Positions 10,351 through 30,088 of a stretch of 64,000 bases of DNA are shown in pieces. The notes below the pieces were generated by a model. It ran no database searches, was not told where the DNA came from, and was given only the letters and a program-made list of their open reading frames with translations. The stretch covers positions 1,974,001-2,038,000 of the forward strand of contig NZ_CP125378.1 in NCBI RefSeq assembly GCF_034008635.1, written 5' to 3'. The DNA is from Pseudomonas sp. P8_229 (GTDB lineage: Bacteria > Pseudomonadota > Gammaproteobacteria > Pseudomonadales > Pseudomonadaceae). Each line of letters starts with the position of its first letter. The stretch's first letter is position 1. The position numbers and the translations under genes were made by a program.

Positions 10351-10442
10351 TTGTAGGAGTGAGCCTGCTCGCGATAGCGTTGGGTCAGTCGACACATTAA
10401 TCGACTGATACACCGCTATCGCGAGCAGGCTCACTCCTACAG
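10351..10442. repeat. REPIN (class A REP doublet)
   Basis: GTAGGAGTGAGCCTGCTCGC head, GATAGCG, core with GGGTCAGTCGA and TCGACTGAT, then the inverted partner. Sits just after the DUF2845 gene. Confidence 0.93.
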
Positions 10443-10473
10443 TTGTTTTGGGCTTTCCCGCAGAAATAGAACA

Positions 10474-10497
10474 GGCCCCGACACAAGTGCCGGGGCC
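10474..10497 (-). terminator. Probable terminator of the BON-domain gene
   Basis: GGCCCCG and CGGGGCC form a 7-base-pair stem, extended inside by CAC/GTG. On the minus strand it is followed by TGTTCTATTT, a weak T-rich tail. It lies about 110 bases beyond the BON gene stop; the 10336-10606 gap holds only this and the REPIN. Confidence 0.5.
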
Positions 10498-10606
10498 CGT
10501 AATGGTCACATCCGTGTGACCGTTCGCATGAACTCTAAAGTTGCGGCAGACGTATTGCCCGGCCCGTCTGTCGCGCCTTCTCCCGGTCCAGGCGAGAAGT
10601 CATGCC

Positions 10607-10963
10607 TTACTCGGCTTTCAGGCCGTCAGCGGAGACCGCTTTGACGCCTTTGATTTTCTTGGTAATCGCTACAGCGGTGGCTTTCTGAGATTCAGTGACA
10701 GCAACAGTCGACGACAGGGAAACGACGCCTTTGTTGGTTTCTACTTTGATGTCGGTGCCTGGAATGCCTTTTTCGGTGACCAGATCGCTTTTGACTTTGG
10801 TGGTGATCCAGGTATCGGAAGTAGCTTCTTTAGCCTTGGTCATTTCACCGGCAGCCAGAGTCATTGGAGCCTGGGTAGCTTGGGTGGATTGGGCGAATGC
10901 ACCGGAAGCCATGGTCAGGGTCAGCGCGGTAGCAGCAGCGGCAGTGATAGCGAACTTCTTCAT
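10607..10963 (-). CDS. Periplasmic BON-domain protein (OsmY-like)
   Basis: A 118-residue protein. The signal peptide MKKFAITAAAATALTLTMA...AFA ends near residue 24. After a short linker comes one BON domain from about residue 49 to the end (TWITTKVKSDLV, then IKVETNKGVVSLSSTV). BON domains are thought to bind phospholipid or envelope surfaces; OsmY, with two, is a stress chaperone of the periplasm. AGGAG stands before the ATG. The upstream 180 bases hold a sigma-54 promoter, an IHF site and palindromes, so expression is probably activator-dependent. The gene is monocistronic. Confidence 0.9.
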   Translation of the reverse strand: MKKFAITAAAATALTLTMASGAFAQSTQATQAPMTLAAGEMTKAKEATSDTWITTKVKSDLVTEKGIPGTDIKVETNKGVVSLSSTVAVTESQKATAVAITKKIKGVKAVSADGLKAE

Positions 10964-11029
10964 ACGAGTAACTCCTGTTTTTCTGGAAAGTCTGCTGGTT
11001 GTCTTGTCAGCAGGGTTACTGGAGATATT

Positions 11030-11044
11030 GCGAAGGCTGTGCCA
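11030..11044 (-). promoter_or_regulatory. Sigma-54 (-24/-12) promoter of the BON gene
   Basis: Minus strand reads TGGCACAGCCTTCGC, 13 of 15 matches to TGGCACGNNNNTTGC with GG and GC correctly spaced. The start site would lie about 12 bases downstream, leaving a leader of about 55 bases before the ATG at 10963. Confidence 0.8.
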
Positions 11045-11072
11045 ACTTCTCGAAAGACAACAAATCGTTATA

Positions 11073-11085
11073 AATCAACAATTTA
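11073..11085. promoter_or_regulatory. IHF-binding site between BON promoter and upstream repeats
   Basis: AATCAACAATTTA matches the IHF consensus WATCAANNNNTTR at every defined position and lies in an AT-rich tract. Its place between the sigma-54 promoter and the upstream palindromes is where IHF usually bends DNA. Confidence 0.65.
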
Positions 11086-11107
11086 TAAATTCAGCAAATT
11101 TCCGAAA

Positions 11108-11145
11108 TCATGCAATTTGCATGACAAGTGCATTATCGACATGCA
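11108..11145. promoter_or_regulatory. Candidate enhancer (activator sites) for the BON gene
   Basis: TCATGCAATTTGCATGA (11108-11124) is a perfect inverted repeat with a one-base centre. TGCAT-N7-ATGCA follows at 11129-11145. They lie about 90-127 bases upstream of the predicted start site, the usual distance for a sigma-54 enhancer. The activator is unknown. Confidence 0.5.
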
Positions 11146-11207
11146 AGTTGCGGCTTTTCGGAAAGTTCCTAACCCGCTGAAATTCCTGAAGCTTTTTTTG
11201 AAGGCCG

Positions 11208-11237
11208 AAAACAAAAACGCCCCGCATGGCGGGGCAT
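11208..11237 (-). terminator. Rho-independent terminator of pilA
   Basis: Minus strand: GCCCCGCCATGCGGGGC followed by GTTTTTGTTTT, about 20 bases after the pilA stop. Confidence 0.85.
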
Positions 11238-11255
11238 CTCAGGACGCTGACTCAA

Positions 11256-11696
11256 TCAGGCACCGGTGCCTGCGCAACCCTTAGGCGCGTAGTCCGGGTT
11301 GACGGTCGACGCACAGCTCCAGACGCCGGAGGTGTTGCCGGTTGCAGCACCGGTACGGGTCAACGTAATGGTTTTACCGAGCACCGGACCTGGAGCATTC
11401 ACCAGTGTGCAGGTGATAGTGCCGGCACCGGTCGAGGCGGTTCCCGACGCCGCCAGCGTGCAGTTGGAGGTGGTCGCTGTAGCGCTACCGGCCACCAGTA
11501 ATAGCGTTGGATCAGTGCCTTGATTGATGGTGTCCTCGAACGGCACCTTCAGTGCACTGATCTCCGCCAGACCCGCAGTCACTTTCGAACGTGCCTGGTA
11601 TTTGGAGTATTGCGGCAAGGCGATAGTCGCCAGAATGCCAATGATCGCCACCACGATCAGCAGCTCGATCAGAGTAAAGCCCTGTTGTTGTTTCAT
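11256..11696 (-). CDS. pilA: Type IV major pilin
   Basis: A 146-residue prepilin starting at the ATG at 11696 (MKQQQGFTLIELL); the open frame extends upstream but only this start gives the short basic leader. PilD should cut after Gly6, leaving N-methyl-Phe1 and Glu5, followed by the hydrophobic assembly helix. Four cysteines lie in the globular part; the last pair (WSC...KGC) probably closes the D-region loop. PilA polymerises into the type IVa pilus for twitching, adhesion and DNA uptake. It is divergent from pilBCD and has a sigma-54 promoter, a strong terminator and no other gene in its unit. Confidence 0.93.
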   Translation of the reverse strand: MKQQQGFTLIELLIVVAIIGILATIALPQYSKYQARSKVTAGLAEISALKVPFEDTINQGTDPTLLLVAGSATATTSNCTLAASGTASTGAGTITCTLVNAPGPVLGKTITLTRTGAATGNTSGVWSCASTVNPDYAPKGCAGTGA

Positions 11697-11745
11697 AGAT
11701 ACGCTCCATGCATGAGTCGGAATCTCATGATCTGAGATGGGCTCA

Positions 11746-11760
11746 GCATAGCCCATGCCA
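11746..11760 (-). promoter_or_regulatory. Sigma-54 promoter of pilA
   Basis: Minus strand TGGCATGGGCTATGC matches 13 of 15 positions of TGGCACGNNNNTTGC, with GG and GC correctly spaced. It predicts a start near 11735 and a leader of about 39 bases, as expected for a PilR-activated pilA. Confidence 0.85.
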
Positions 11761-11833
11761 ACCGCTCGCTCGCCCGAATACTCGGCATGCCCACGATGCG
11801 AAGGCCTTTCCTACAACCGACAACCGCACTATC

Positions 11834-11848
11834 TGACACTTTTTGTCA
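11834..11848. promoter_or_regulatory. Candidate PilR-binding repeat upstream of pilA
   Basis: TGACA-CTTTT-TGTCA is a perfect inverted repeat about 100 bases upstream of the predicted pilA start; another TGTCA stands at about 11872. PilR in P. aeruginosa binds TGTC-type repeats at a similar distance. The site also lies between the divergent pilA and pilB genes. Confidence 0.5.
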
Positions 11849-11921
11849 CCTGTGCCCGACGTGTGTGGCGCTGTCACTTGACTAGGCTATAAGTCATGAA
11901 CGGCAAGCGTGCGGAATCCCC

Positions 11922-13622
11922 ATGAATGACATCGCTCTGAGCGGTCTGGCCAAGCAACTGGTACAGGCTGAACTGTTGACGGAAAAAAGCGCCCAGCAAG
12001 CCTGGCAACAGGCGCAGCGCAATCGGCTGTCGCTGGTCAGCTACCTGGTGCAGAACAAACTGGTGAGGAGTTCCCAGGTCGCCGAAATCGCTTCCGAGCA
12101 TTTCGGCATGGCCTTCATGGACCTCAATTGCCTCGACAAGGAAACCCAGCCCAAGGGCCTGGTCAGTGAAAAACTGGTGCGTCAGCACCACGCCCTGCCC
12201 TTGTGGCGACGCGGCAACAAGCTGTTCGTGGGCATTTCCGATCCGAGCAATCATCAGGCAATCAACGATATCCAGTTCAGCACCGGACTGAGTACCGAAG
12301 CCATCCTGGTGGAAGACGACAAACTCAGCGATGCCATCGAGAAATTTTTCGACACCCACGCCAGCGGCCTCGAAGAGATGGCCGACGTCGACCTCGACGG
12401 GGTGGACGTCGAATCCGTCGACGACAGCCGACAGGAGAATATCGGCGGACTCGATGCCGATGACGCCCCGGTGGTGCGCTTCGTGCACAAGATGCTGCTG
12501 GACGCGATCAAGAGTGGCTCGTCGGACTTGCACTTCGAACCCTACGAAAAGAACTTCCGGGTGCGGGTGCGCACCGACGGCATCCTGCGCGAAGTGGCCA
12601 AACCGCCGATTCAGTTGGCCGGGCGGATCGCCGCACGCCTGAAAGTCATGGCCAGCCTCGACATCTCGGAGCGGCGCAAACCCCAGGACGGGCGGATCAA
12701 GATGCGCCTGTCGAAGAGCAAGTCGATCGACTTCCGGGTCAACACCCTGCCCACCCTGTGGGGCGAGAAAGTGGTGATCCGGATTCTCGATCCGTCCAGC
12801 GCGCAGATCGGCATCGATGCCCTGGGTTACGAACCGGCGCAGAAAGACCTGTACATGGCCGCGCTCAAGCAGCCGCAGGGGATGATTCTGGTGACCGGCC
12901 CGACCGGGTCGGGGAAAACCGTGTCGCTGTACACCGGACTCAATATTCTCAATACCGTCGACATCAACATTTCCACCGCCGAAGACCCGGTGGAAATCAA
13001 CATGGAAGGCATCAACCAGGTCAACGTCAATCCGAAACAGGGGCTGGATTTCTCCCAGGCATTACGCTCGTTTCTGCGTCAGGACCCGGACGTGATCATG
13101 GTCGGCGAAATTCGCGATCTGGAAACCGCCGAGATCGCGATCAAGGCCGCGCAGACCGGCCACCTCGTGTTGTCCACGCTGCACACCAACAGCGCCGCCG
13201 AAACCCTGACCCGCCTGCACAACATGGGCATTCCCGGCTTCAACATCGCCACCTCGGTGAGCCTGATCATCGCCCAGCGCCTGGCACGCAAGCTGTGCAG
13301 CCACTGCAAGAAACCGATCGAGATTCCGCGCGAAACGCTGATCAAGGAAGGCTTCCCACCGGAACAGATCAGCAGTTTCACGATCTATGAGCCGGTCGGT
13401 TGCGATCAATGCAACGGCGGCTACAAGGGACGCGTGGGGATTTATGAAGTGGTGAAAAACACACCCGAGCTGCAACGGCTGATCATGGCCGAAGGCAACT
13501 CGCTGGAAATCGACAGCCAGATGCGTCACGACGGTTTCGACGATCTGCGCACCTCAGGCCTGCGCAAGGCCATGCAAGGCATCACCAGCCTGGAAGAAAT
13601 CAACCGGGTCACCAAGGACTGA
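11922..13622 (+). CDS. pilB: Type IV pilus extension ATPase
   Basis: A 566-residue secretion ATPase that powers pilus assembly at the inner membrane. An N-terminal MshEN/T2SSE-N region (about residues 1-150) is followed by the hexameric ATPase core, with Walker A GPTGSGKT near residue 325, Asp-box and Walker B (VIMVGEIRDLETAEIA) and a His-box (TGHLVLSTLHTN). The C-terminal tetracysteine zinc motif (CSHC ... CDQC) is complete. It is the first gene of pilB-pilC-pilD-coaE-yacG and lies divergent from pilA, with two bases between its stop and pilC. Confidence 0.97.
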   Translation: MNDIALSGLAKQLVQAELLTEKSAQQAWQQAQRNRLSLVSYLVQNKLVRSSQVAEIASEHFGMAFMDLNCLDKETQPKGLVSEKLVRQHHALPLWRRGNKLFVGISDPSNHQAINDIQFSTGLSTEAILVEDDKLSDAIEKFFDTHASGLEEMADVDLDGVDVESVDDSRQENIGGLDADDAPVVRFVHKMLLDAIKSGSSDLHFEPYEKNFRVRVRTDGILREVAKPPIQLAGRIAARLKVMASLDISERRKPQDGRIKMRLSKSKSIDFRVNTLPTLWGEKVVIRILDPSSAQIGIDALGYEPAQKDLYMAALKQPQGMILVTGPTGSGKTVSLYTGLNILNTVDINISTAEDPVEINMEGINQVNVNPKQGLDFSQALRSFLRQDPDVIMVGEIRDLETAEIAIKAAQTGHLVLSTLHTNSAAETLTRLHNMGIPGFNIATSVSLIIAQRLARKLCSHCKKPIEIPRETLIKEGFPPEQISSFTIYEPVGCDQCNGGYKGRVGIYEVVKNTPELQRLIMAEGNSLEIDSQMRHDGFDDLRTSGLRKAMQGITSLEEINRVTKD

Positions 13623-20543: not shown

Positions 20544-20620
20544 TGGTCGGGGTAAGGGGATTCGAACTCCTGACATCCTGCTCCCAAAGCAGGCGCGCTA
20601 CCGGACTGCGCTATACCCCG
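20544..20620 (-). tRNA. tRNA-Pro (anticodon TGG), copy 2
   Basis: 77 bases with encoded CCA end; starts CGGGGTATAG on the minus strand, anticodon loop CTTTGGGAG and T-loop TTCGAAT. It appears identical to the copy at 20799-20875. It is separated from the rest of the cluster by a terminator-like hairpin. Confidence 0.97.
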
Positions 20621-20622
20621 GT

Positions 20623-20653
20623 AAAAAAAAGGCGACCTTTCAAAGATCGCCTT
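20623..20653 (-). terminator. Terminator-like hairpin inside the tRNA cluster
   Basis: Minus strand AAGGCGA pairs with TCGCCTT and is followed by a T-run. It stands between tRNA-Lys and the last tRNA-Pro, so that last gene needs read-through or its own promoter. Confidence 0.7.
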
Positions 20654-20717
20654 CTTCGATCAGCGCTTTTGGCCTCTGATCTTAAGATTCGATCCCAGCG
20701 CTAACTGGTTTCAAAAA

Positions 20718-20793
20718 TGGTGGGTCGTGTGGGATTCGAACCTACGACCAATTGGTTAAAAGCCAACTGCTCTACCAACTGAGCTAACGACCC
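20718..20793 (-). tRNA. tRNA-Lys (anticodon TTT)
   Basis: 76 bases, minus strand starting GGGTCGTTAGCTCAG, anticodon loop GCTTTTAAC, ending CGACCCACCA. The T stem GTAGG/CCCAC has an A.C mismatch at its middle pair; everything else folds normally. Confidence 0.96.
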
Positions 20794-20798
20794 AAAAA

Positions 20799-20875
20799 TG
20801 GTCGGGGTAAGGGGATTCGAACTCCTGACATCCTGCTCCCAAAGCAGGCGCGCTACCGGACTGCGCTATACCCCG
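20799..20875 (-). tRNA. tRNA-Pro (anticodon TGG), copy 1
   Basis: 77 bases with encoded CCA, same sequence as the downstream copy. It lies five bases from tRNA-Lys and nine from tRNA-Asn, clearly in one transcript with them. Confidence 0.97.
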
Positions 20876-20884
20876 GCTTGAAAT

Positions 20885-20960
20885 TGGCTCCGTGACCAGG
20901 ACTCGAACCTGGGACCCAATGATTAACAGTCATTTGCTCTACCGACTGAGCTATCACGGA
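20885..20960 (-). tRNA. tRNA-Asn (anticodon GTT)
   Basis: 76 bases, minus strand starting TCCGTGATAGCTCAG, anticodon loop ACTGTTAAT, ending CACGGAGCCA. It is the first gene of the cluster, behind a strong promoter. Confidence 0.97.
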
Positions 20961-26932: not shown

Positions 26933-27166
26933 ATGCTCCGTTTACTGTTCTGGATTGTCCTGATTTTCGCTGCGCTATGGCTGTGGCGTAAATTCAAGGC
27001 GCCCGCCTCGTCTGCCCAAGCGCCCCGCGAGCAAGACGCCGCGCCGATGGTGCGCTGCGCCCATTGTGGCGTGCACCTGCCCCGCGACCGCGCCCTGAAC
27101 CTTCAGCAACAGTGGTATTGCAGCCAGGCTCACCTTGAGCAAGGCCCCGGTTCCAGTGATCGCTGA
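26933..27166 (+). CDS. PP0621-family membrane-anchored zinc-ribbon protein
   Basis: A 77-residue protein with one N-terminal membrane helix (LLFWIVLIFAALWLW) and a small cytoplasmic or periplasmic metal-binding part: CAHC, then WYCSQAH, giving three Cys and a His as in short zinc ribbons. It matches the family named after P. putida PP0621. It overlaps the start of pilS by 32 bases, so the two are probably translated together. Function unknown; location suggests a link to PilSR. Confidence 0.85.
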   Translation: MLRLLFWIVLIFAALWLWRKFKAPASSAQAPREQDAAPMVRCAHCGVHLPRDRALNLQQQWYCSQAHLEQGPGSSDR

Positions 27167-28745
27167 GGCCGTCAACGCCCACCATAAACAGGCCCAGCGC
27201 CTGCTGCGTCTTTATCATTTGTACCGTTTAAGCGTCGGCATCACGTTGGTGTTGCTGATCTCCAGCAACATGGACAACCGCCTGCTGACGTCGGCCGACG
27301 ACGATCTGCTGCGCAGCGGCAGCTGGTTGTATCTGGTGCTGAACATCCTGCTGGTGGTGTTTCTGGAAAACACCCGGCGTCCGGCGCAGCTGTTCAGCCT
27401 GGCGCTGGTGGATGTCCTGCTGCTGTGCGGTTTGTTCTACGCGGCGGGCGGAGTGGCCAGTGCCATCGGCAACCTGCTGATTGTTTCGGTAGCCATCAGC
27501 AACACCCTGCTACGCCGGCGCATCGGCCTGCTGATTGCCGCCATCGGCGCGCTCGGAATGGTCGGCTCAAGCTTCCTGCTGAGTTTCAGCCATCCCCTGA
27601 GCGCCAATGATTACCTGCAAGCCGGCACCCTCGGCGCCTTGTGCTTTGCGGCGTCATTGCTGGTCCAGGGCCTGGTTCGGCGTCTGGAAGTCAGCGAGCA
27701 CCTCGCCGAACAGCGCGCCAGCGAAGTCGTCAGCCTCGAAGCCCTCAACGCCCTGATTCTGCAACGCATGCGCACCGGCATCCTGGTGCTCGACGAACAA
27801 CGCCGGGTGCAGTTGGCCAACCACAGCGCCAAAAGCCTGCTGGCCCAATCGCACCTTGAGGGCCATCTGATCGACGACTACTCCAGGCCGCTGGTCGATC
27901 GCCTGCAGTTGTGGCTGAACAATCCGAGCTTGCGCCCACAGAGCTTGAAGATTCCCGGCAACGGCCTGGAGCTGCAGCCGAACTTCATCGCCCTCGAACA
28001 AAACCCCAACCAGCAAACCCTGGTATTTCTCGAAGATCTCGCGCAAGTCGCCCAGCAGGCCCAGCAACTCAAACTCGCCGCGCTCGGGCGCCTGACCGCC
28101 GGCATTTCCCATGAAATCCGCAATCCGCTGGGCGCCATCAGTCACGCCGCGCAGCTATTGGGTGAGTCCGAGGAACTCGACAGCGCGGATCGGCGTCTGA
28201 CGCAGATCATTCAAGACCACTCCCAGCGCATGAACCGAGTCATCGAAAACGTCCTGCAACTGTCGCGTCGCCAGCAGAGCGCTCCGCAACGGCTGGATCT
28301 CAAGCCGTGGCTGGAACAGTTCGTCGCAGAAAGCCGTGAACAGGCCACTGATCGGCAAACGATCCATTTACGGATCAATTCCGGGGACTTCGTCACGCTG
28401 ATGGACCCCGACCAGCTCACGCAAATTCTCGACAATCTGTTACGCAATGGCTGGCGCCACAGTGCGCTGCTGCATGATACGGCCCAAGTCTGGCTGGCGC
28501 TGTTCATCGACCCCGACAGCCAGCTGGCGGTGCTTGAAGTCCAGGACAACGGCCCCGGCGTGCCGCTGGATCAGCAACCGCATCTGTTCGAGCCGTTCTT
28601 CACCACCAGCAGCCAGGGCACCGGCCTTGGGCTTTATCTGTCCCGTGAGCTGTGCGAAAGCAACCAGGCGCGCCTAGACTTCAAACCACGCCAAGGCGGC
28701 GGCTGCTTTCGCATCACCTTTGCTCACGGACGGAAACAAAGTTGA
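27135..28745 (+). CDS. pilS: Two-component sensor histidine kinase PilS
   Basis: 536 residues from a TTG at 27135; a GTG at 27156 is an equally possible start. Six hydrophobic segments lie between about residues 30 and 180, then a PAS-like region, a HisKA domain with the phospho-acceptor in GISHEIRNPLG near residue 325 and a HATPase domain with N box (LDNLLRNGWRHS), DNGPG and GTGLGLYLSRELCE. PilS senses inner-membrane pilin and controls phosphorylation of PilR. Its stop overlaps the TTG of pilR. Confidence 0.93.
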   Translation: MSKAPVPVIAEAVNAHHKQAQRLLRLYHLYRLSVGITLVLLISSNMDNRLLTSADDDLLRSGSWLYLVLNILLVVFLENTRRPAQLFSLALVDVLLLCGLFYAAGGVASAIGNLLIVSVAISNTLLRRRIGLLIAAIGALGMVGSSFLLSFSHPLSANDYLQAGTLGALCFAASLLVQGLVRRLEVSEHLAEQRASEVVSLEALNALILQRMRTGILVLDEQRRVQLANHSAKSLLAQSHLEGHLIDDYSRPLVDRLQLWLNNPSLRPQSLKIPGNGLELQPNFIALEQNPNQQTLVFLEDLAQVAQQAQQLKLAALGRLTAGISHEIRNPLGAISHAAQLLGESEELDSADRRLTQIIQDHSQRMNRVIENVLQLSRRQQSAPQRLDLKPWLEQFVAESREQATDRQTIHLRINSGDFVTLMDPDQLTQILDNLLRNGWRHSALLHDTAQVWLALFIDPDSQLAVLEVQDNGPGVPLDQQPHLFEPFFTTSSQGTGLGLYLSRELCESNQARLDFKPRQGGGCFRITFAHGRKQS

Positions 28746-30088
28746 ACACGAGCCCACGGCAAAAAATCCTCATCGTCGACGACGAGCCGGATATCCGCGA
28801 ACTCCTGGAAATCACCTTGGGACGGATGAAACTCGACACCTTCAGCGCGCGTAATCTCGGCGAAGCCCAGGCGCTGTTGCAGCGCAATGCGTTCGACCTG
28901 TGCCTGACCGACATGCGCCTGCCGGACGGCACCGGGCTGGAGTTGGTGCAGCACATCCAGCAACGTTATCCACAACTACCGGTGGCGATGATCACCGCGT
29001 ACGGCAGCCTGGAAACCGCGATCAACGCCTTGAAGGCCGGGGCCTTCGATTTCCTCACCAAACCGGTTGATCTCACCCGCCTGCGCGAACTGGTCAACAC
29101 CGCGCTGCGCATGCCTGCCACCGGCGGCAGCGTCACGTCGATCGACCGCCGCCTGCTGGGCGACTCACCGCCGATGCGCGCTCTGCGTAAACAGATCGAC
29201 AAGCTCGCCCGCAGTCAGGCACCGATCTATATCAGCGGCGAATCCGGCAGCGGCAAAGAGCTGGTCGCGCGACTGATCCACGAACAGGGGCCGCGCAGCA
29301 GCCAGCCGTTCGTGCCGGTCAACTGCGGGGCGATTCCGTCAGAGCTGATGGAAAGCGAGTTTTTCGGCCATCGCAAGGGCAGCTTCACCGGTGCGGTAGA
29401 AGACAAACCGGGGCTGTTTCAGGCCGCGCACCGCGGCACCCTGTTTCTCGATGAAGTGGCGGACCTGCCACTGTCGATGCAAGTCAAACTTCTGCGGGCG
29501 ATCCAGGAAAAAGCTGTACGTAGCGTTGGCGGCCAACAGGAAACCGTGGTCGATGTGCGCATCCTTTGCGCCACCCACAAGGACCTGGAAGCGGAAGTCG
29601 CCACCGGGCGCTTTCGCCAGGATCTGTATTACCGGTTGAACGTGATCGAACTGCGGGTGCCGTCCCTGCGCGAACGGCGCGACGATATCGAAGTACTCGC
29701 CGCGCACATGCTCCAGCGTCTGGCCAGCGGCAGCGGTCAAGCGGCTGCCCGCCTGCACCCGCAAGCGCTTGAAGCGCTGAAAAGCTATCGCTTTCCGGGG
29801 AATGTGCGGGAACTGGAGAACGTCCTCGAACGGGCGCACACGCTGTGCGAAAACCAGGTGATCGAGGCTGAAGATTTGCGCCTGAGCGATGGGAATTGTG
29901 CAGTCGAGGGCGGCATTGCCGACCTGACGCAGATCGACAACCTTGAGGATTACCTGGAGAACGTCGAGCGCAAACTGATCCTTCAGGCGCTGGAGGAGAC
30001 TCGCTGGAACCGCACGGCGGCGGCGCAGCGGCTGAGTCTTTCGTTTCGGTCGATGCGCTACAGACTGAAGAAACTCGGCCTGGATTGA
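28742..30088 (+). CDS. pilR: Sigma-54-dependent response regulator PilR
   Basis: 448 residues from a TTG that overlaps the pilS stop (TTGA). Receiver domain (1-120) with VDDEPD, phosphorylation site in LCLTDMRLPDG and the KP pair in FLTKPVD. AAA+ domain with Walker A GESGSGKE near residue 170, the sigma-54 loop as GSFTGA (Ser instead of Ala, as I recall for PilR of P. aeruginosa) and the GGTLFLDEV-like GTLFLDEVADLP. Fis-type HTH at the end (RTAAAQRLSLSFRSMRYRLKKL). It should activate the -24/-12 pilA promoter at 11746-11760. Confidence 0.95.
   Translation: MNTSPRQKILIVDDEPDIRELLEITLGRMKLDTFSARNLGEAQALLQRNAFDLCLTDMRLPDGTGLELVQHIQQRYPQLPVAMITAYGSLETAINALKAGAFDFLTKPVDLTRLRELVNTALRMPATGGSVTSIDRRLLGDSPPMRALRKQIDKLARSQAPIYISGESGSGKELVARLIHEQGPRSSQPFVPVNCGAIPSELMESEFFGHRKGSFTGAVEDKPGLFQAAHRGTLFLDEVADLPLSMQVKLLRAIQEKAVRSVGGQQETVVDVRILCATHKDLEAEVATGRFRQDLYYRLNVIELRVPSLRERRDDIEVLAAHMLQRLASGSGQAAARLHPQALEALKSYRFPGNVRELENVLERAHTLCENQVIEAEDLRLSDGNCAVEGGIADLTQIDNLEDYLENVERKLILQALEETRWNRTAAAQRLSLSFRSMRYRLKKLGLD

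Follow-up and report, generated by a model that had tools for sequence, protein, structure and literature searches.

A BON-domain gene and its upstream region

The window, that is, the whole stretch of 64,000 nucleotides from Pseudomonas sp. P8_229 that we analyzed, contains on its minus strand a gene for a small BON-domain protein, preceded by a control region of several parts. The coordinates of the gene and of these parts are listed in Table 1. Judged by eye, the N terminus of the BON protein resembles a signal peptide. When compared with the NCBIfam model for OsmY, the protein scored 52.6 bits, which is below the cut-off of 174, and it is therefore not an OsmY equivalog. In many species, the open frame of the BON protein is about 220 aa long and contains a second BON match, as for instance at G004:C8:39243-39842 and G040:C8:38019-38618.

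The BON gene is adjoined by a type IV pilin gene (11256-11756, minus strand), which has a GG-N10-GC element of its own, TGGCATGGGCTATGC, at 11746-11760 on the same strand. The window also encodes, at 27135-30088, a two-component pair that we take, from its sequence, to be PilS-PilR-like. As expected, the pilin element fits what would be predicted for a pilin promoter driven by PilR and sigma54. Terminator-like hairpins flank the BON gene, and the upstream one probably belongs to the pilin gene; both are weak evidence, because two such sites were found against 1.8 expected in shuffled sequences. An inverted repeat of the GTAGGAGTGAGCCTGCTCGCGA type lies at about 10353-10441, with the DUF2845 gene on one side and the BON terminator on the other, and similar copies of it occur at two other loci of our collection (L137 and L141). 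It is a REP-like element of the kind common in Pseudomonas. A cluster of four tRNA genes is found further along the window (20547-20960, minus strand).

Table 1. Features of the BON gene and of its control region (positions in the window)
Feature	Position	Strand	Basis	Remarks
Terminator-like hairpin (intrinsic type) 3' of the BON gene	10471..10500	-	terminator scan against shuffles	
BON-domain protein gene	10607..10963	-	ORF list; Pfam BON, E 4.2e-14	118 aa, single BON domain
Start codon of the BON gene	10963-10961	-		
Shine-Dalgarno sequence of the BON gene	10972..10976	-		AGGAG
Predicted transcription start (+1)	11018	-	placed from the -24/-12 position	12 nt downstream of the -12 C
-24/-12 element	11030..11044	-		TGGCACAGCCTTCGC (GG-N10-GC)
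IHF-consensus site	11073..11085	-	consensus match	WATCAANNNNTTR on the + strand
Proximal enhancer site (predicted AlgB box)	11108..11124	-		palindrome TCATGCAAATTGCATGA (8-1-8; TCATGCAATTTGCATGA on the + strand)
Distal enhancer site (predicted AlgB box)	11139..11155	-		core CGCAACTTGCA at 11142-11152, 31 bp upstream of the proximal core
Terminator-like hairpin between the pilin gene and the BON promoter	11214..11240	-	same scan	

Conservation of the control region

A preliminary description of this DNA had claimed that the BON gene is preceded by a complete enhancer-IHF-sigma54 promoter layout, made of the -24/-12 element, the IHF site and the 8-1-8 palindrome of Table 1, and had named a lack of conservation of the palindrome and the IHF site in related species as an argument against it. 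All parts are present at these positions. We then compared 81 promoters, namely that of the window and those of 80 loci from named Pseudomonas, the closest relatives among 356 confirmed ones. Both the -24/-12 element (GG-N10-GC, with TGGCAC...TGC-like letters) and the TGCA-N3-TGCA core of the proximal palindrome were kept in all 81 promoters, and a predicted IHF-like element was found with a loose consensus in 80 of them. The complete 17-mer was kept in 69 of the 81 when either A or T was accepted at the two central positions that are free. Every promoter also had a distal box in which 7 or all 8 of the core letters match, taking the best of eight offsets. The layout thus stood, with palindrome and IHF site conserved in the relatives.

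The spacing of the elements was similarly constant. The distance from the start of the proximal box to the TGG of the promoter was 77 bp in 76 of the 81 promoters, 76 bp in three and 78 bp in two. When the distal box was searched without imposing any phase, the distance from the proximal box to the best distal candidate was 31 bp in 80 promoters, and the remaining promoter gave a tie that included 31. The enhancer is made of two TGCA-N3-TGCA boxes in a 31 bp phase, and the letters that are strictly kept in the aligned promoters are those of the sigma54 layout. One claimed part did not survive the comparison: TGCAT-N7-ATGCA (11129-11145), proposed earlier as the second enhancer element, occurs in only 2 of the 81 promoters, and we dropped it as a regulatory element in favor of the conserved distal box of Table 1.

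Twenty more distant BON loci, chosen for their divergence or their doubled BON domain, likewise carried the GG-N10-GC element and the TGCA boxes. The phase was 31 bp in 16 of them and 32 bp in two (L118 and L122), and two gave ties. At the level of sequence, these comparisons confirm a genuine sigma54 promoter layout in front of the BON gene, far above what chance would produce.

Predicted targets in the same genome

Searching the genome of the window with the palindrome only, allowing three mismatches, yielded nine strand-wise matches compared to two in the control, and few of them were true targets. Because of this, we adopted composite patterns, which gave 10 matches in this genome and one in the control. 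The complete layout was present at four of the 10, in front of the BON gene and of the genes for a DUF3509 protein (assigned by Pfam; L145), a membrane protein of 313 aa (L146) and a protein of 76 aa with the C terminus -RLVF (L143). On inspection, L137, L139 to L142 and L144 were judged to be chance matches. The strict pattern failed to catch a fifth promoter, located in the intergenic region that algB shares with a divergent gene encoding a 94-aa protein that ends in -REERWVF.

We also built a profile, R1, from 42 promoters, with the five targets of this genome in its training set. R1 recovered these five and, with E values below 1e-7, two genes outside the training set, coding for proteins with a DUF1652 (L237) and a DUF2383 (L238) domain according to Pfam. 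A match with an E value of 0.004 (L241) and all weaker ones were not counted among the targets. We also set aside L239 (G000:C1:5294481-5294549, minus strand), which has a strong -24/-12 element and an IHF-like stretch but no boxes; it is probably the target of a different activator. Its neighbors resemble genes of acyl-CoA metabolism.

Both the box definition and profile R1 began from BON promoters, and they were checked with 17 genomes that had given no training sequences (see below) and with a matrix whose entire training set was 25 algB-divergent promoters from other genomes, the loci of which had themselves been selected by box and 31 bp phase. This matrix gave a score of 27.2 to the BON promoter of the window, compared to -12.0 for the runner-up among the 190 candidates in the window and to 0.6 for the best of six shuffles. 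Elsewhere in the genome, it scored 28.4 for the algB-divergent promoter, 28.2 for the DUF3509 gene and 25.5 for the gene of the 76-aa protein; the scores were weak for the membrane protein gene (2.4) and for the DUF1652 and DUF2383 genes (-20.5 and -19.1, respectively). We predict the BON gene to be one of at least five, and perhaps seven, targets in this genome.

AlgB as the predicted activator

Promoters of the sigma54 type require an enhancer-binding protein, and the genome of the window encodes 20 strong sigma54 activators (26 matches altogether). The activator recognizing the palindrome had initially been called not obvious. AlgB is now the activator to which adjacency and co-occurrence both point, and 17 of the 20 activators could be excluded. 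The AlgB orthologue of this genome is L192 (G000:C1:3024638-3025981), a protein of 448 aa with a receiver domain, a sigma54-activating AAA+ domain and a Fis-type helix-turn-helix, and its gene is adjoined by a kinB-like gene (Pfam KinB_sensor). Its identity to proteins bearing the name P. aeruginosa AlgB is 84 to 85%, and its closest relatives include proteins named AlgB in many pseudomonads. Its assignment as AlgB rests on these source names and on this identity, since among the best 25 of 115 NCBIfam matches no model above its cut-off named it AlgB.

To see which activator genes lie beside the targets, we compared 39 loci, 29 of which were family loci (L147 to L175, of which L158 and L173 to L175 are chance matches). 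An activator gene was found in 14 of the 29 family loci, and all 14 match L192 with 74 to 84% identity, compared to at most 55% for the other 19 activators. Conversely, starting from algB, a tandem-box promoter was found divergently beside the gene at 26 of 30 algB loci, that of the window's genome included. The phase was 31 bp in all 26, but these loci had been picked with that phase. Among the exceptions, the promoter was about 1.2 kb away at L229, and none was found by the box scan at L210, L225 and L230; with the profile, however, the genomes that contain L210, L225 and L229 (G161, G246 and G171, respectively) each give a match close to algB.

We then looked for the 20 activators in genomes devoid of AlgB. 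In G079, G244 or G157, three such genomes in which 49 of 62 strong activator loci were examined, we found orthologues of 17 activators, with an identity of 66% or higher across more than 75% of the length. For AlgB, L191 (at most 40% identity) and L195 (54%), the loci examined contained no clear orthologue.

Co-occurrence of AlgB and the promoter across genomes

The presence of AlgB is bimodal: over 78 genomes, the best identity was 75 to 100% in 48 and at most 46% in 30. In 71 genomes searched with the plain pattern, matches were found in 41 of 46 with AlgB versus 3 of 25 without it (Fisher p 1e-10), the three being G170, G193 and G229. For the profile, we considered as full length all matches starting at model position 24 or before, so that 6 partial matches out of 123 were dropped and 117 were retained. 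Full-length matches were found in 32 of 33 AlgB-bearing versus none of 30 AlgB-less genomes (p 4e-17), in a comparison of genomes that share ancestry, where losses on one branch may count more than once. The partial matches, which cover the IHF-promoter part or slightly more, came from the AlgB-less genomes G239, G118 and G244 and from the AlgB-bearing genomes G175, G207 and G246. Among the AlgB-bearing genomes that had given no training sequence, 16 of 17 had full-length matches.

These matches are not confined to the surroundings of algB. A full-length match lies within 8 kb of algB in 29 of the 33 AlgB-bearing genomes, and 75 of the 117 matches lie more than 8 kb away, spread over 29 of the 33. 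The exceptions are G200, which had no match, and G069, G082 and G152, in which matches were found near algB only. In G069 and G082, the BON matches were weak even though AlgB is present; the five AlgB-less genomes of the window's own genus included in the BON search gave weak BON matches only (9e-5 to 9e-11).

In several genera, an AlgB-less genome lacks full-length promoters, whereas its congeners have both. AlgB-less genomes within mostly AlgB-bearing genera are G239, G093, G118, G123, G138 and G079 in the genus of the window and G218, G244, G174, G178 and G179 elsewhere, and their position inside such genera argues against mere ancestry as the cause of the association. Within the genome comparison, they are the stronger evidence. 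We consider it highly probable that the promoter in the window is of the sigma54 type and that its activator is AlgB, the NtrC-type response regulator in the KinB-AlgB two-component system.

As one alternative, the promoter could be of the sigma54 type but respond to a different enhancer-binding protein, the distribution of which coincides with that of AlgB by chance; L191 and L195, which were also without clear orthologue at the AlgB-less loci examined, would be the candidates. However, where an activator gene stands beside the targets it is algB, in 14 of the 39 loci compared, and a matrix derived from algB-divergent promoters picks out the BON promoter, so that we regard this alternative as improbable. 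PilR could be thought of as well, because its gene lies in the window together with that of PilS and because the neighboring pilin gene, which PilR is expected to drive, has its own GG-N10-GC element. Nevertheless, PilR orthologues (83% and 77% identity) persist in the AlgB-less genomes G079 and G244, both of which lack a full-length tandem-box promoter, and a terminator-like hairpin separates the pilin and BON genes. We therefore dropped PilR as the activator of the BON gene, a role that we find hardly conceivable.

It could also be that the -24/-12 element is genuine but makes only a minor contribution, the BON gene being mainly an RpoS- or sigma70-dependent stress gene like osmY. OsmY is classically RpoS dependent, and the BON domain is indeed present in the protein. 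Against this, the protein scores below the OsmY cut-off, and the letters strictly kept upstream of its gene belong to the sigma54 layout. Furthermore, no sigma70-type promoter-like site was found in 10400-11950, a weak result given that 0.8 would be expected in shuffled sequences. We thus judge such a mainly RpoS-driven gene very unlikely, and activation by AlgB and sigma54 remains our preferred reading.

Composition of the predicted regulon

From 154 loci, 94 distinct target proteins were extracted by script. Classified by short sequence signatures, they comprise 33 BON-like proteins, 24 proteins ending in [WF][VT]F, 14 DUF3509-like and 8 DUF2383-like proteins, 7 members of the membrane family and 8 others. 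The [WF][VT]F tail, found in 24 of the 94 targets, was present in only 27 of 4059 background open reading frames and in none of the 828 background frames of at least 200 aa; the corresponding p value of 2e-27 is overstated because of near-identical sequences from sister species, a simple start rule and mechanically defined background frames. All 24 proteins fall among the 64 targets of at most 125 aa. Ten of the 24 come from a single genus (g6), and targets of the WVF type occur in eight genera (g1, g2, g5, g6, g9, g11, g12 and g15). Judged by eye from their hydrophobic N termini, these small co-targets are putative envelope proteins. At one locus (L303, G168:C1:3614728-3616203), two close genes, each with a tandem-box promoter, code for small proteins ending in -TWTF and -TFTF.

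The AlgB of G268, a genome near P. aeruginosa, shares 98% identity with sequences that carry the name P. aeruginosa AlgB. In this genome, the five strongest profile matches lie in front of genes for a BON-like protein, a 91-aa protein ending in -EQAWTF and two DUF3509-like proteins (by signature), as well as the algB-divergent gene pair. From their sequences, we take the first gene of this pair to be DUF1328-like and the second to be Ivy-like. The genome of the window also encodes a MucA-like protein (RseA_N family).

Proposed mechanism and implications

From the elements, their conservation and recurrence, their linkage to algB and their co-occurrence with it, we infer the following course of activation. 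AlgB dimers would bind to the two TGCA-N3-TGCA boxes, which are 31 bp or about three helical turns apart and centered near -98 and -129. IHF would occupy its site and bend the DNA near -60, and the AAA+ ATPase ring of AlgB would then open the RNA polymerase-sigma54 complex at -24/-12, making expression dependent on RpoN. The signal would be the state of the envelope, transmitted by KinB and, in some species, possibly by BphP.

In work by Damron from 2009, MucA proteolysis in a kinB mutant reportedly needed AlgB and AlgW. It was also found to depend on RpoN, according to a passage of a further study (PMC12830090). The C-terminal -WVF of MucE activates AlgW, as stated in passages of two papers (PMC3819740, PMC8545111), and an excerpt of another describes a truncated pilin with an -FTF signal working through AlgW in one mutant strain (PMC3684759). 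Targets with -WVF, -WTF, -FVF or -FTF tails may in this way let AlgB also feed the AlgW-MucA-AlgU pathway, and since the WVF tail of MucE activates AlgW, they could explain how KinB, AlgB and RpoN trigger MucA proteolysis. On the other hand, RpoN is reported in part of the same pilin paper to drive algW itself (PMC3684759), which would account for the RpoN dependence without any WVF protein and counts against this reading.

We therefore advance only tentatively, with somewhat less than even confidence, the broader proposal that AlgB may be the sigma54 activator for an envelope-stress regulon that spans the family and counts among its members small MucE-like proteins whose C termini activate AlgW, and that these proteins would supply the missing AlgB- and RpoN-dependent step from KinB-AlgB to AlgW-dependent MucA cleavage. 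Since AlgU is reported to activate algB, in a passage of one study (PMC13001231), such a regulon would, if true, close a positive loop between the phosphorelay (KinB, BphP) and the AlgU envelope-stress response. Additionally, AlgB may act without the tandem-box sigma54 layout, because unphosphorylated AlgB activates algD through three sites there, as stated in part of a review (PMC10418997). In an excerpt of a second review, it is phosphorylated AlgB that activates AlgW, in contrast to the unphosphorylated form activating the alginate genes.

The predicted AlgB site and the short list of targets make a direct AlgB regulon testable with few promoter fusions. The frequent -WVF, -WTF, -FVF and -FTF tails offer a concrete candidate for the RpoN requirement of MucA proteolysis in the kinB mutant, and the BON gene, plain by its annotation, could serve to report the activity of AlgB in pseudomonads from the environment.

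Comparison with known systems

In a search of the literature that covered it partially and mostly as passages, so that a known AlgB motif is possible, we found no description of the TGCA-N3-TGCA box, of this layout or of the regulon. The preliminary description had suspected an undescribed enhancer-binding-protein regulon; the regulon is indeed one that we did not find described in the literature searched, but the evidence points to the known AlgB as its activator. As far as the sequences go, the promoter is of an ordinary kind, combining sigma54, an enhancer and IHF, and the regulon is a new prediction for a known regulator, and a well supported one.

Classical promoters of the NtrC or NifA type have paired activator sites, an IHF site and a -24/-12 element, as the BON promoter does. 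Unlike these, it has TGCA-N3-TGCA boxes in a 31 bp phase, and the predicted targets resemble envelope-stress rather than nitrogen genes. With OsmY and other BON-domain periplasmic proteins, the BON protein shares its domain; it differs in lying under the OsmY equivalog cut-off and in having a sigma54-type promoter.

The regulator is the same as in the KinB-AlgB system of P. aeruginosa, which regulates alginate and virulence there, as indicated by its 84 to 85% identity, the adjoining KinB_sensor gene and the receiver, sigma54-activating and Fis-type helix-turn-helix domains. However, in the passages of the KinB-AlgB literature covered, AlgB is tied to algD and to the repression of group behaviors, whereas we predict here an enhancer of two tandem boxes and several conserved families of targets. 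Finally, when the tails are compared, the algB-divergent 94-aa protein, which ends in -REERWVF, is similar to MucE, a small envelope protein that activates AlgW and whose tail decapeptide ends in -DELRWVF in a passage of the paper concerned (PMC8545111). In contrast to the proteins described here, which are predicted AlgB-sigma54 targets, mucE of P. aeruginosa is driven by AlgU and was not raised by overexpression of RpoN, as reported in part of an earlier study (PMC3819740).
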